A program made the position numbers and the translations under genes. A stretch of DNA of 35,685 nt, taken from NCBI GenBank assembly GCA_903901425.1, contig CAIURC010000177.1:1-35685 (forward strand), written 5' to 3'. Positions 11,260-18,589 of the stretch are shown in pieces. Numbering within the stretch: the stretch's first letter is position 1; every line of letters starts with the position of its first letter. The notes under the pieces are model-generated. The model was not told the DNA's origin. It searched no databases and worked only from the letters and a program-made list of their open reading frames with translations. The stretch is from an uncultured Spartobacteria bacterium (GTDB lineage Bacteria; Verrucomicrobiota; Verrucomicrobiia; Chthoniobacterales; Chthoniobacteraceae).

Positions 11260-11300
11260 CCCGGGGCTTGGATGAGCCGGGTGGTTTGAGCGGTTTTTTT
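11260..11300 (+). terminator. Possible rho-independent terminator after rpe
   Basis: CCC (11260-11262) and GGCT (11265-11268) pair with AGCC (11275-11278) and GGG (11279-11281) around the loop TGGATG, with a GG bulge. Seven T residues follow at 11294-11300. The hairpin is strong, but the 12-base gap before the T run is long for a canonical terminator. Confidence 0.35.
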
Positions 11301-11358: not shown

Positions 11359-12981
11359 ATGCAGTTTATCCGGGAGCTCGGGCTAAGGACAATTCTGGGG
11401 GCGGCTGCGCTGGTGTGGGGACAGCATTGTGTGGAGGCCGGTGGGATTGTTTTGCAGCATCCCTCGGAGTACCGGGTCTGTCAGAGGATTGAGCCGGATG
11501 CGGGCACGGTCTTGGTTTATGGGCGAGCGGATCTGGAGGCGGACGTTTTGGAGTACCGGTTTTTGGGGGAGTCAGCGGCTGGGCGGAGGTTGGGGGATGC
11601 TTGGTGCCAATTTCCGACGCCGCTTCAAAACGGGAAATTTGACTTCCAGACGACGGTGCCTGCCGGGGGATGGTACCGCTTGGAAGTCCGTGCCCTGAAG
11701 AGCGGCGAACCCGTGGGTCAGGCGGTGGTGGAGCATGTGGCTGTGGGGGAGGTTTTTGTGGCAGCGGGCCCGGACAGGGAGGACTCCGGTCCCCGTTCGG
11801 GTCCCGGTGCGGGCGCCGTGTTTGACGGGAAACGGTGGAATCCAGCGCCGGTAGTGTTGTCGGACAAGGCTTCCGGGTGGGTGCCGGCGTGGACGGATCA
11901 GATTGGGGTTCCGGTGGGATGGGTTCCGGTGCCGGGGGGGGAGGTGTCCGGATGGCGTTCCGAGGAGTCTGGGAGTGCGCGGAGGCGTTTGCTGGGATGT
12001 CTGGACGCCCTGGGGCCGCGGGGTGTCCGGGCGGTGCTATGGCAGGGGGGTGAGGGACGGGAATGGGCGGGGGTCTGGGAGGAACTGGCCGAGCAGGCCC
12101 GGCGGCGCATCGGGGCTGGGATGGGCTGGCTTGTTTTGGATCCCGCGGGAGCAGAGGCCCGCAGGTTATGGGAGAAAGGAGTGATCCAGAGTGGTCCGGG
12201 AGCGGTGGCGGGCTGGCCAGGGCTGGTGAAGGAATGGATGGGGGAAGCCTTCAATCCGGCGGGCTGCCCACCGAGACCGGGGTATCATCTGGTCTGGAGC
12301 GACGAGTTTGACGGGTCGAATCTGGATTTGAAAAAGTGGAAGCACAGGTACCCCGGGCCCCGGAAAAACGGGTTTAACACGCCAGAGGCGGTGCGGGTGG
12401 ACGGGAAAGGGCATCTGGAACTGAGCTGTGATCGAGCCCCGGACGGACGGTATTTGGTGGGGATGATCTGCACGGAGGGCCTGTTTGAGGCGCAATACGG
12501 GTACTTTGAAGCCCGGGTCCAATTTCAGACTCAGGAAGGATGGTGGCCCGGGTTCTGGCTGATGGGCGGCCATGTGGCGGATCCAGGCCGTGGAAAGGGC
12601 CGGGTGGATGACACCAGCCGGAATGGGACTGAAGTCGACGTGTTTGAATACCTGCGGCGGCACGGGGATGAGATTCAGCATGCGCTCCACTGGAACGGGT
12701 ACGGCTCGGACCACAAATCGCGGGGGGAGCACGTGGGCGTGCCGGGGCTGGGCAGCGGGTTCCACACCGTGGGTGTGGAATGGACGCCGGACGGGTACCG
12801 TTTTTTTGTGGATGGCCGGCTGACGTGGTCCACGCGTGAGGCGGTTTCTCAGGTGGCGGAGTACCTGATTCTGAGTGGCGAAGTGAGCGAATGGCCTGGG
12901 GACATCCGCCGGGCGCAGTTGCCGGACCGCGTGGTGTTTGACTGGGTCCGGGTCTGGCAGTTGCCGCCGGGCGAGGAGTAG
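11359..12981 (+). CDS. Secreted GH16-family glycosidase fused to a degenerate sialate O-acetylesterase-like domain
   Basis: This is a 540-residue two-domain protein. The C-terminal part (about 308-535) is a GH16 beta-jelly-roll: LVWSDEFDGSNLDLKKW (311-327), WWPGFWLMG (395-403), and the catalytic E-x-D-x-x-E motif E425-V-D427-V-F-E430, with nucleophile and acid/base intact. GH16 enzymes cleave beta-1,3/1,4-glucans, agars or carrageenans; the substrate cannot be read here. The N-terminal part (about 35-285) follows the order of secreted verrucomicrobial sialate O-acetylesterases: VAVGEVFVAAG, then PVGWVPVPGG, then LGPRGVRAVLWQGGE. The catalytic GQSN is replaced by GPDR (137-140) and the usual QGESD-type motif reads QGGEG (229-233), so it is probably a non-catalytic carbohydrate-binding remnant. 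A signal peptide is likely in residues 1-27 (LRTILGAAALVWGQHCVEA). The ATG at 11359 was preferred to an upstream TTG at 11299. Confidence 0.85.
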   Translation: MQFIRELGLRTILGAAALVWGQHCVEAGGIVLQHPSEYRVCQRIEPDAGTVLVYGRADLEADVLEYRFLGESAAGRRLGDAWCQFPTPLQNGKFDFQTTVPAGGWYRLEVRALKSGEPVGQAVVEHVAVGEVFVAAGPDREDSGPRSGPGAGAVFDGKRWNPAPVVLSDKASGWVPAWTDQIGVPVGWVPVPGGEVSGWRSEESGSARRRLLGCLDALGPRGVRAVLWQGGEGREWAGVWEELAEQARRRIGAGMGWLVLDPAGAEARRLWEKGVIQSGPGAVAGWPGLVKEWMGEAFNPAGCPPRPGYHLVWSDEFDGSNLDLKKWKHRYPGPRKNGFNTPEAVRVDGKGHLELSCDRAPDGRYLVGMICTEGLFEAQYGYFEARVQFQTQEGWWPGFWLMGGHVADPGRGKGRVDDTSRNGTEVDVFEYLRRHGDEIQHALHWNGYGSDHKSRGEHVGVPGLGSGFHTVGVEWTPDGYRFFVDGRLTWSTREAVSQVAEYLILSGEVSEWPGDIRRAQLPDRVVFDWVRVWQLPPGEE

Positions 12982-13633: not shown

Positions 13634-16600
13634 ATGAAAATGAAAAAGACAGCGGCCATTGTGGAACCCTTGGAAAGCCGGATTGCACCGGCGACGATCG
13701 TGACGTTGGAGTACGTGGCGGCGGAGAAGAGGCTCGAAATGAGCTCGGGCGGTGGTGTGGGCGACACGGTGAATGTGGAGGTGGTGCAAGTGAGCAAGGA
13801 CACGTTCCGGGTCCGTGCGGTGGATTCCGAAACCGTGCTGCAGATTTCCGGCGATACCGGCACGGCCTCCGTGCTCGACTTCAAAGCGGCTCTGAACGGG
13901 TTGGTCTTCACGGGTAGCGATGGGGACGATCAGTTGCGCCTCTCGGGCTTGACCGGGCTGAAGTTTTTCAGGTTTGAGGGGGTCACAGACCCGGTCACTC
14001 GCGTTGAGACGCAGGTGGACGGTGAGGACAGAGTCGAACTCAACAATGTGACGGTCACTGGGGATGTGAGTTTGAAGTTTGGCGGGACGGGGCAAGATCT
14101 GGTCACGTTGGGGGGGAACTCACTGAAGGTGACCGGGAGGCTCGAGACCGTCTTCGGTGCAGACGGCGGCAATCTGCGGGTCACGGCGATGGACAGCGTC
14201 ATCGGGACACTCAATGTTTCGGGTGGCGCCGGCGCGGATCTGGTGGAGTTCTCAGGGACCCGGGCCACGGTGACGAGCGAGATCGTGTTTGCCGCAGGTG
14301 GGGGAAGCAACTCGCTGTTTGTAACGCCGGATGTCCTTTCAATTGGCAAGTCGGCAGTGCCGGCCCGGTTGAACAACTCGATAACGTTCACCTCTTCGGG
14401 AACTGGAGGTGATAGTCTGACTCTTGATTCCGGGGTGAGTGCAGTCCTCGGGGGAGCGGTTCAGGCGAGTTTGGATGGAGGAACCAACACGGTATTGTTG
14501 GCAGGGGCCAGTCTGAAGGTGGGGGCTGCTGCGGGATTCTCGCTGATTTGCGAGGGAGGCGCCGGCACCGATACCCTGACGCTGGGCGCTCTCAATGCGG
14601 CATTTTCGGGTGGGGTCCGGAGCACGCTCGGCGACGGTTCCAACTCCGTGACGGTTTCAGGCATCTCGACGACACTGGGCAGCGCCACGGGTGTCTCTTG
14701 GCTGTATCAGGGGGGGCAGAATGCGGACGGGATTTCTGTGACGAGCGAGAAGTTCACTACGAGCGGAGCCTTGAATTTGAATGGTTCTGGAGGAACCAAC
14801 ACGGTCCAGATTCTCTCGCAGACAGCGAGCGTGGGCCGGGGCACTGCCGGGGAAACCGCGGGTTTGTCGGTGAATTACGTGGGTACGGGAGGGGCAGACA
14901 CCGTCCAGATGGGCGGCACCGCCAGTTCAGTGGATTTGAAGGGGGCGGTGCGGATGGATGCCGGGGCTGGCGCCAACCAGTTGGCATTTTCCGGGGTGAG
15001 CGTGGGTCTGGGGGCTGGTGTGGGAGCGACTGCGGGTGTTTCGTTGCAGTACCTCGGCGGTCAGGACGCGGACAGCTTCTCCACCAGTGGTGGCAGATTT
15101 GTGACTGCCGGAGCCTTGAACATAAATGGATCCGGAGGAACCAACACGGTTCAGGTTTTTTCGCAGACAGCGACCTTGGGCCGGGGCACTGCCGGAGAAA
15201 CCGCAGGTTTGGCTTTCAATTACGTGGGGGAAGGCGGCACGGACACTGTCCGTTTGGGGGATGCCGCAAGCGGGTTGGATCTGAAGGGGGCGGTGCGGAT
15301 GGTTGCCGGGGCTGGCGCCAACCAGTTGGTGTTTTCCGGCGTGAGCGTGGGGTTGGGGGCAGGAGTTGGCGCGACTGCCGGGGTTTCGTTGCAGTACACA
15401 GGCGGCCAGGACGGGGACAGCATCTCCAGCAGTGGAGCACGGCTTTCGACCGCAGGGGCACTGAATGTGGATGCAGGCGCGGGAACCAACACGGTCCAGA
15501 TGGTTTCGCAATCCCTGATTCTTGGCAAAGGGACTGCGGGTGCCACGGCTGGATTGTCCTTCAATTACGTGGGCGCCGGAGGCGCTGACACGGTTCGGAT
15601 TGGCAGTACCTCAGGGGGCAGCGATCTGAAGGGTGCCGTCAAGGTGGCGGTTGGTGATGGCACCAATGAACTGAGACTGCGAGGGATCAGTCTGAAAATG
15701 GCGGCCGGCGGCCGCACAGATTTTGGCGGCTCCGTGCTCTACACGGGCGGCAGCGGGGACGATGTGTTGAGTGTTGAGGCGAAGACCGCGTCGCTGTCTG
15801 GCGCCGTATTTTTCGTTTCTGGCAACGGCGACAACCGGCTGGTTCTCACGGGAGCTTCCCTGACGGTTGGAAAATCCACTGCGGCTTTCACAGGTGAGGC
15901 CAACGCAAAGGAAATCTCCAAGTCGATCCTGTTCGTGGCGAACGGGTCCGGCCAGAGCCTTCTCAGTTCAGACTACAAGACGCTGAATCTGGGAGGATCG
16001 GTGGAACTGCTGGGAACGGGATTCACGGGGAATTCGTTGAGCCTCGACATCCAGGGAGACGCGGTAACGATCGGGAAGTCGGCGGTGCTGGGACGGTCCG
16101 TGGCGGTGTTGGGCAACGCCTCGAATGCTGCGAGTTCTGCGGAGGTGAGGCTGTCTGGCAGGAGCCTGACGCTGGCTGGCGATTTCGAGGTGGAGGGGGT
16201 TCAGAATGGGTTGACCGTGGATGTGGATTCGGACCGGTTGAGTGTTGCGGGTGCGGTGCGGGTCACGGGTGGGAACGGATCGGATTCGGTGAGCATTGAG
16301 GCAGACGGCTCCGTGGCAAAGGCCTCGGTGATTGACCTGAAGGGGGTGGACGCGATCAACCTTTCGCCCACGTTGAACGCTGCCATGCTAAATGCCGGCT
16401 TTGATGCGGCGCTCGGGCTTGATACGGTCTCTTACAGTTTCAATGCCGCCACAGACATTGCGAGTACATCGGCTGGGTTTGACGCGGCATCGCTGCTGGT
16501 GAGTTTTGATGCGTCGACGCTGGACATCAATCCGAATGTATTCGTTGCCGGGAGCGACGTGGATACGGCTCAGAGCCGGATCACTCTGCTCCAGCACGGA

Positions 16601-18589
16601 CTAACCACCGGAGATGCTGTGCTCTACAACACCAGTGTGGGTACTGCGATTGGCGGTTTGGCTTACGAGGCGGTTTATTATGTGGTGGTGATTGATGGTG
16701 ACACGGTCCAACTCGCAGCCACCAAGGCGGATGCGAAAGCAGGCACCCCTGTGGTCATCTCCCTGACCTCCACGGGCTCCGGTACTCAGGTTTTCACCAC
16801 GACAGAAAACCCGATCGCTATCACGGCCCACGGGTTTGAGACCGGGGATGCGGTGGTTTACAGGCCCGGGGCCGGAACTGAGATTGGCGGTCTGGATGCG
16901 GGTGTGACTTATTTTGTGGTGAAACTGGATGCCAACACCATCAAGTTGGCGGCGTCCAAGGCGGATGCAACGGCGTTGACTCCGGTGACCTTGGATCTGC
17001 CGACTGCTGGAACCGGGTCTCAGCAGTTCTTCAAGGCAGACGACAAGCTGACCGTCACGGCGCACGGTTTTGCGACCGGAGATTCCGTGGTTTACGTTCC
17101 CGGAGCCGGGGCAGAGGTGGGCGGGCTGGATGCCGGAACCGTCTACTACGTGGTGGCTTTGGATGCGAATACGATCCAACTCGCTTCCTCCAAGGCGAAT
17201 GCACTGGCGGTGACTCCGGTGGTTTTGGATCTGACGGATGCGGGCACCGGAACCCAAAATTTTGTAGAGGCGGCTGACCAGATTCGGATTGTTGGGCACG
17301 GGCTGAGCACGGGGGATTCGCTGGTGTACGCGCCCGGAGCGGGTGACGCGATCGGCGGACTCACCGCTGGGACCGTGTACTACGCAGTGGCTGTGGATGC
17401 TGACAATATCCGGTTGGCGTCTTCTCAGGAAAACGCCTTGGCCGGAACTCCGGTGGTTCTGGACCTGACTTTGGCGGGGACCGGCACACAGGAGTTTTTG
17501 GAAACCAGTGACCAGATCACGATCACCGGCCATGGTTTTGTCACGGGGGATTCCGTGAAGTACCTGCCGGGTGCAGGCACAGTGATCGGTGGGCTCAGTG
17601 CAAACAGCGTGTATTTCGTGGTGGTGGAGGATGCGAACACCATCCGACTGGCCAGCACCAAGGCGGATGCCGAGGCAGACATGCCGGCGACGTTGGATCT
17701 GACTTCGGAAGGAACTGGTAGCCAGGCGTTCTTCCGGAATGACAATACCCTTCAGATTGCCGGGCACGGATTCACAACGGGCCAAGCTGTGGTGTACGCC
17801 CCCGGTGCGGGTGGAGCGATCGGCGGTTTGACCGCAGGAACGGTGTACTACGCGATTGTGGACAGCGACAACGCGATCCGGCTCGCGGCATCTCCTGAGA
17901 ATGCGGATACTCAAGTGGCGTTGACCCTGACAGCTGCCGGGACGGGGACTCAGGAGTTTTTGGCGACGAACGTGTCGCCCCAGTCCGTGCAACTCCTCGG
18001 GAAGACCGGGATCAATGGCGTGGCGCTGGTGGGAGCCGGGCTGACCTTTAGGGACGCGCTTTCGGTTTCAATTGATGGCGCGGAAGCCGCGGCGAACCGG
18101 GGTCAGGCGGTGTTCCAGTCTGGCCGATCGGCACAACTGGTTGCGGCTCTCAACTCTCTGGTCGACGAGTCGGTGAGAATTGCCAATGTGCTGGTCACCA
18201 AAGACACTGTGGTGGCCCTTGGGGAAGCGGAGAGCAGGGTGGATATTGACAATCTGAATGCACGCGCTGCGTTCACCCTGAGGACCAACGGCGGGGCGGA
18301 CTCTGTGTTCCTGGAGCGGGCGTCGTTGTTTGGGAGTTCGACCATTACCGGGATCGCTCAGATCCTCCTCGGCGATGGAGACGACACGGTCCGGATTGGA
18401 GAGAACAACGAAATCAACCCCAACCCGGTTGTGGGGATCGTCAATGGGCGGAACAACCAAGTCAGCTTCGGGGCGGCGTTGACGGTGGATGGCGGTGCTG
18501 GAGACGATACAATCAATAACATCAGTAATCCCACCAACCTGTTTAAGACGGGCGTGACACCCACTTTGACCTCAGTCACCGCGGCTTGA
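13634..18589 (+). CDS. Giant repetitive surface protein with LEPR-type N-terminus
   Basis: This 1651-residue protein begins MKMKKTAAIVEPLESRIAPA, the LEPR-type N-terminal motif found on very large repetitive proteins of Verrucomicrobiota and Planctomycetota. There is no ordinary hydrophobic signal peptide. Residues about 25-960 are low-complexity G/S/T/V/N-rich beta-repeat sequence, probably a beta-helix or beta-roll stalk, including three 115-residue copies at 354-699. Residues 981-1446 are six 78-residue HGxxTGDxVxY repeats. The C-terminal ~200 residues contain GDGDDTV and GGAGDDTI, resembling RTX calcium-binding turns. No C-terminal anchor such as PEP-CTERM is seen. It is probably an adhesin, S-layer-like or sheath component. 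A strong terminator follows, so it seems to be a single-gene transcript. Function is unproven. Confidence 0.88.
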   Translation: MKMKKTAAIVEPLESRIAPATIVTLEYVAAEKRLEMSSGGGVGDTVNVEVVQVSKDTFRVRAVDSETVLQISGDTGTASVLDFKAALNGLVFTGSDGDDQLRLSGLTGLKFFRFEGVTDPVTRVETQVDGEDRVELNNVTVTGDVSLKFGGTGQDLVTLGGNSLKVTGRLETVFGADGGNLRVTAMDSVIGTLNVSGGAGADLVEFSGTRATVTSEIVFAAGGGSNSLFVTPDVLSIGKSAVPARLNNSITFTSSGTGGDSLTLDSGVSAVLGGAVQASLDGGTNTVLLAGASLKVGAAAGFSLICEGGAGTDTLTLGALNAAFSGGVRSTLGDGSNSVTVSGISTTLGSATGVSWLYQGGQNADGISVTSEKFTTSGALNLNGSGGTNTVQILSQTASVGRGTAGETAGLSVNYVGTGGADTVQMGGTASSVDLKGAVRMDAGAGANQLAFSGVSVGLGAGVGATAGVSLQYLGGQDADSFSTSGGRFVTAGALNINGSGGTNTVQVFSQTATLGRGTAGETAGLAFNYVGEGGTDTVRLGDAASGLDLKGAVRMVAGAGANQLVFSGVSVGLGAGVGATAGVSLQYTGGQDGDSISSSGARLSTAGALNVDAGAGTNTVQMVSQSLILGKGTAGATAGLSFNYVGAGGADTVRIGSTSGGSDLKGAVKVAVGDGTNELRLRGISLKMAAGGRTDFGGSVLYTGGSGDDVLSVEAKTASLSGAVFFVSGNGDNRLVLTGASLTVGKSTAAFTGEANAKEISKSILFVANGSGQSLLSSDYKTLNLGGSVELLGTGFTGNSLSLDIQGDAVTIGKSAVLGRSVAVLGNASNAASSAEVRLSGRSLTLAGDFEVEGVQNGLTVDVDSDRLSVAGAVRVTGGNGSDSVSIEADGSVAKASVIDLKGVDAINLSPTLNAAMLNAGFDAALGLDTVSYSFNAATDIASTSAGFDAASLLVSFDASTLDINPNVFVAGSDVDTAQSRITLLQHGLTTGDAVLYNTSVGTAIGGLAYEAVYYVVVIDGDTVQLAATKADAKAGTPVVISLTSTGSGTQVFTTTENPIAITAHGFETGDAVVYRPGAGTEIGGLDAGVTYFVVKLDANTIKLAASKADATALTPVTLDLPTAGTGSQQFFKADDKLTVTAHGFATGDSVVYVPGAGAEVGGLDAGTVYYVVALDANTIQLASSKANALAVTPVVLDLTDAGTGTQNFVEAADQIRIVGHGLSTGDSLVYAPGAGDAIGGLTAGTVYYAVAVDADNIRLASSQENALAGTPVVLDLTLAGTGTQEFLETSDQITITGHGFVTGDSVKYLPGAGTVIGGLSANSVYFVVVEDANTIRLASTKADAEADMPATLDLTSEGTGSQAFFRNDNTLQIAGHGFTTGQAVVYAPGAGGAIGGLTAGTVYYAIVDSDNAIRLAASPENADTQVALTLTAAGTGTQEFLATNVSPQSVQLLGKTGINGVALVGAGLTFRDALSVSIDGAEAAANRGQAVFQSGRSAQLVAALNSLVDESVRIANVLVTKDTVVALGEAESRVDIDNLNARAAFTLRTNGGADSVFLERASLFGSSTITGIAQILLGDGDDTVRIGENNEINPNPVVGIVNGRNNQVSFGAALTVDGGAGDDTINNISNPTNLFKTGVTPTLTSVTAA
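14693..15730 (+). repeat. Three tandem 345-bp coding repeats
   Basis: Units start at 14693, 15038 and 15383. The first two are exactly 345 bp (115 codons); the third is about 348 bp and the most diverged. Each encodes VSxxYxGGQ, then GTNTVQ, GRGTAGETAG or a variant, LKGAV and GVSVGLGAGVGATAG. The spacing of the AACCAACACGG block (345 bp between copies) fixes the period. A fourth, degraded start (SVLYTGG) follows. They lie within the giant surface-protein gene. Confidence 0.85.
16574..17971 (+). repeat. Six tandem 234-bp coding repeats (HGxxTGDxVxY type)
   Basis: Units begin at 16574, 16808, 17042, 17276, 17510 and 17744. The period is 234 bp (78 codons), and the last copy is six bases shorter. 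Each encodes an ITxHG-xTGD-xVxY opening, then PGAG, IGGLxAGxxYYVV, a DANTIxLA strand with KADA, and TLDLTxAGTGTQxF. The same general repeat occurs in giant bacterial adhesins and calcium-binding proteins. DNA identity is moderate, so the copies are old or under diversification. Confidence 0.88.

Follow-up and report, generated by a model that had tools for sequence, protein, structure and literature searches.

Results

The gene and its domains

The window analysed here, a stretch of 35,685 nucleotides of DNA from an uncultured Spartobacteria bacterium, carries on its forward strand a gene (11359-12981) for a predicted secreted protein of 540 amino acids plus stop, supported by full-length alignment to five orthologues, in which a pseudo-esterase of the sialate O-acetylesterase (SASA) type is fused to a GH16 glycosidase. 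The longest open frame starts with a TTG at 11299, and we prefer the ATG at 11359, from which residues are numbered throughout; the 540-codon frame has a normal GC3 (0.72) and runs without stops. The protein begins with a signal-peptide-like segment (residues 1-24, 11359-11430), recognised from its sequence and from an N-terminal helix predicted by AlphaFold at residues 2-22, and continues with the N-terminal beta-sandwich of a SASA-type esterase (residues 25-127, 11431-11739; family profiles and AlphaFold strands), an eroded SGNH esterase core (residues 128-300, 11740-12258; alignment and profile scores) and a GH16 catalytic domain (residues 301-535, 12259-12963; Pfam match at 343-530). The region singled out in the initial annotation, 11740-12213, corresponds to residues 128-285 and takes in most of the SGNH core, the remnant of which extends to about residue 300 (12258); the strings by which the domain had been recognised lie at residues 127 (VAVGEVFVAAG), 218 (LGPRGVRAVLW) and 229 (QGGEG).

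The GH16 half matches PF00722 (E 7e-16), shows the beta-jelly-roll fold (Z about 27 to GH16 structures) and keeps the catalytic E-x-D-x-x-E motif intact as E425-V-D-V-F-E430 (12631-12648), with the numbering first reported for it and at the same place as in the orthologues. When the full-length model was compared with Foldseek and VIA-align, GH16 filled both match lists. The nearest solved sequences are beta-1,3-glucanases/laminarinases (E 5e-20 to 1e-16), and 3ATG, 2HYK and 9VOQ share sequence, fold and the ExDxxE motif with this domain, which, unlike these enzymes, has a former esterase attached at its N-terminus. These matches suggest that the window GH16 is a beta-1,3-glucanase/laminarinase, and we infer that it is probably still active as a glycanase.

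Neither shared neighbours nor a polysaccharide-utilisation locus were seen around the window gene or around the orthologues looked at. Downstream on the same strand (13634-18589) lies the gene for a 1651-amino-acid repetitive protein, which starts MKMKKTAAIVEPLESRIAPA and has no Pfam match; it is probably a repeat protein that is secreted or exposed on the surface.

Loss of the esterase site

A search for other GH16 proteins with the same N-terminal domain, as had been proposed, found SASA-GH16 fusions in five sister-genus genomes (L004/L045, L005/L046, L006/L047, L033/L048 and L007/L049). These fusions (L045-L049) have the architecture and domain order of the window protein, which aligns with them end to end at 44-47% identity and has the same beta-sandwich, and the two that were scanned match Pfam SASA (PF03629) at E 4e-21 and 2e-20; the family profile in turn finds 1ZMB, 2APJ, SIAE (8F9O) and the carbohydrate esterase 9H4U. 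The assignment of the N-terminal half to the SASA/SGNH type is thereby borne out, and as judged from the alignment the window protein shares common descent with the SASA proteins. Outside the sister genus, the window and one further contig (L050/G101), no SASA-GH16 fusion was found in 213 order-level and 384 class-level genomes.

All five sister-genus orthologues possess an intact esterase site, with GQSN, HQGESD and a His-bearing segment that reads GVHF, GIHF or QIHF...GL(Q/R)KHG; in the same columns the window protein has GPDR, QGGE and a gap. GPDR (residues 137-140, 11767-11778) occupies the place of the catalytic GQSN of block I, and QGGE (residues 229-232, 12043-12054) that of the HQGESD of block III, with 17 residues deleted directly after it, so that both replacements noted in the initial annotation (GPDR for GQSN and QGGEG for a QGESD-type motif) agree with the orthologue columns. 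The extent of the loss is larger than had been noted: the block V-type catalytic His motif is gone with the whole 21-residue segment that runs GVHF...GLQKHG in orthologues (junction at 12208-12213), and about 90 residues are missing from the SGNH core, in about 10 deletions that are all in frame, alongside dozens of substitutions. Residues 128-300 contain no His and no Tyr at all.

The oxyanion hole of SASA enzymes is formed by the Gln adjacent to the catalytic Ser, with HQGE positioning it (PMC9487903), so the nucleophile, the oxyanion hole and the His have all been lost from the window protein, which would be expected to have no esterase activity. Unlike the members of its family, it has none of the segments that bear GQS, HQGE and the His, and the Pfam profile no longer recognises it: the whole protein has no SASA match at E<=10, its N-terminal half hits none of the Pfam families at E<=1, and Pfam and NCBIfam scans find no esterase domain in it. 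Some 50 other homologues that combine this beta-sandwich with an SGNH core keep a GQS motif; the window protein is the sole full-length loss. The initial annotation had held that orthologues with an intact GQSN would point to a one-off mutation or to faulty sequencing; such orthologues do exist, but what their columns indicate is a lineage-specific erosion of the whole esterase active site and not an isolated mutation or sequencing slip.

Relaxed constraint is limited to the SGNH core

How evenly has the protein changed? In the beta-sandwich, the window protein is 41-50% identical to the orthologues, which are 43-70% identical to one another, and the corresponding figures are 65-70% versus 74-83% for GH16 and 35-39% versus 61-78% for the SGNH core. 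Columns that are invariant among the orthologues are kept by the window protein at 26 of 32 positions (81%) in the beta-sandwich, at 128 of 147 (87%) in GH16 and at 43 of 130 (33%) in the SGNH core, where 50 of the 130 are deleted. Gaps in the core amount to 92 residues in 11 events, versus none between orthologues, and the beta-sandwich has no indel against four of the five orthologues and a single-residue one against the fifth. Scored against profiles built from intact relatives, the beta-sandwich reaches 81-122 bits and the SGNH remnant only 14-19, compared with a maximum of 7-10 among 2000 shuffled sequences.

A codon model with shared branch lengths, in which omega on the window branch was set against the background separately for each domain, gives 0.157 versus 0.057 for the SGNH core (2.8 times; 2ΔlnL = 40), 0.07 versus 0.084 for the beta-sandwich, where it is not raised, and 0.043 versus 0.034 for GH16, where it is little raised, the values on the window branch being relative only because synonymous divergence between the window gene and the orthologues has reached saturation. 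Omega = 1 fits the SGNH core worse (2ΔlnL = 37), which would be expected from a recent loss on a long branch and is also compatible with partial constraint. Composition has shifted in the SGNH core only, with a GC content at second codon positions of 0.60 in the window versus 0.50-0.53 in orthologues and a Gly+Ala+Arg+Pro fraction of 0.47 versus 0.32-0.37. As measured on these alignments, the relaxation of constraint is limited to the SGNH core, and the beta-sandwich and GH16 evolve normally.

The remnant may keep some features of its fold. AlphaFold predicts a trimmed alpha/beta core with pLDDT mostly 62-85, versus mostly 80-95 in an intact orthologue, a prediction biased toward that core because the input alignment consists of intact homologues. 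The hydrophobic class is retained at 17 of the 23 aligned invariant hydrophobic columns of the core, and the deletions lean to loops, not significantly (P = 0.10). Partial folding, or even binding, may persist, but no positive evidence points to a retained role in binding, and the part of the esterase that has been kept is the beta-sandwich. Tryptophans have been gained at five positions in the remnant (W174, W178, W188, W236 and W240), at one in GH16 and at none in the beta-sandwich; all five codons in the remnant are TGG, and fourfold sites of the gene are about 58% G. Between 9000 and 15500 of the window, the forward strand has a strong excess of G over C (skew mostly 0.15-0.39 per 500 bases).

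Decay in related fusions and esterases in the same genome

Halves of this fusion have decayed elsewhere too. The orthologue in genome G057 (L034; L095 1-1600, G057:C70) is a mirror image of the window gene, with its SASA domain intact and its GH16 frame broken by frameshifts and a large deletion, and in L050/L071 (L050 1-1539) it is again the esterase that is intact, a stretch of 351 bases flanked by short repeats having dropped out of the GH16 core. L049 (371-2254), which is 98-99% identical to L050 over the gene, keeps GH16, but its signal-peptide region is interrupted by a stop codon. Single events of this kind could be errors, since these are metagenome assemblies; the pattern of separate half-decay points to a fusion that can often be dispensed with.

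The genome of the window also encodes an 868-amino-acid tandem-SASA protein (L092 358-2964, reverse strand; G000:C156), both domains of which carry GQSN and (H/Y)QGES, and a SASA esterase pseudogene with an internal deletion and a frameshift (L093 1041-1818; G000:C114), so esterase activity can be redundant there. Among relatives, the beta-sandwich almost always comes together with an SGNH core. At the edge of a Clostridia contig (L065 2-379) the same beta-sandwich meets a stop codon soon after VGVG and has no SGNH core, and in L054 (1454-3565) an intact SASA domain of the same family is fused to a GH18 chitinase-like domain (SGVDYDWE, read by eye).

Discussion

The window protein is very probably a GH16 beta-glucanase that carries an eroding former esterase half as a spacer. 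Its ancestor would have been a bifunctional secreted enzyme in which an SGNH/SASA-type carbohydrate acetylesterase was fused to a GH16 endo-beta-glucanase. In the lineage of the window, the nucleophile (GQSN to GPDR) and the oxyanion-positioning motif (HQGE to QGGE) have been lost, together with the entire His segment, and the SGNH core is eroding under relaxed selection. Why is the reading frame still open? Production and secretion of the downstream GH16 presumably still depend on it, and the role left to the remnant may be chiefly that of a spacer or folding scaffold following the conserved beta-sandwich.

The initial annotation proposed instead that the pseudo-esterase may have survived as a module for glycan binding; in that case the SGNH core would bind substrate and target GH16. 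A precedent is found in CtCel5C-CE2 (Montanier et al. 2009, PMC2661963), where an SGNH esterase module likewise sits on a glycanase and its active site also binds glycan, in that case cellulose, non-catalytically, and the tryptophans gained mainly in the remnant and the conserved beta-sandwich could be read in the same direction. CtCE2, however, retains its catalytic Ser-His and its activity, belongs to family CE2 and not to SASA, and is a C-terminal module on a cellulase, whereas the window protein has lost both residues and had its active-site loops deleted. Drift can explain the tryptophans, as all are TGG in a locally G-rich strand, and it is in the SGNH core, not in the beta-sandwich, that constraint has dropped. 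Relaxed constraint, drifting composition and a domain that barely matches its own family thus speak against the proposal, which we consider improbable; that the remnant, the five new tryptophans and the conserved beta-sandwich together form a new type of carbohydrate-binding module targeting GH16 seems to us a little less probable again. A further possibility, which would refine the spacer reading, is that the useful part is the beta-sandwich alone, as an accessory or binding module, with the SGNH remnant as its linker to GH16. This would account for a domain with at most a one-residue indel, most of its invariant columns and a strong family score while the adjoining core decays, yet folding or secretion may be reason enough to keep the beta-sandwich, a sequence search with its profile against solved structures gave no match at E<=1, and relatives nearly always have it together with an SGNH core; we offer the idea tentatively and lean against it.

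Two other accounts carry far less weight. The eroded form comes from one genome only, a metagenome-type assembly of 224 contigs, as might be expected of a sequencing or assembly artefact, but an artefact would have to produce about 10 separate in-frame deletions and dozens of substitutions inside an open, stop-free frame with an ordinary GC3, and is very improbable. A change of the SGNH core to a new catalytic activity has the open frame and the predicted alpha/beta core in its favour and nothing else; with His and Tyr absent from the core, and all motif blocks gone along with the loops that bore them, we give it the least credence of all.

Parts of this picture are already known. The fusion of an SASA esterase with a glycosyl hydrolase is not unprecedented, since a 2022 review of SGNH enzymes mentions glycosyl hydrolase domains in a small share of the SASA proteins of bacteria (PMC9487903), and an esterase that doubles as a binding module is established for CtCE2 (PMC2661963). 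We found no description of an inactive SASA domain fused to GH16 in the open-licence literature.

The window gene captures, at good resolution, a bifunctional enzyme in the course of losing one of its halves within a frame that stays open. An automatic annotation that called its product a sialate O-acetylesterase on the strength of its overall resemblance to relatives would be mistaken. Here the esterase is eroded and GH16 kept, and in two related genomes the reverse is seen, which suggests that deacetylation and backbone cutting are separately dispensable in these bacteria.
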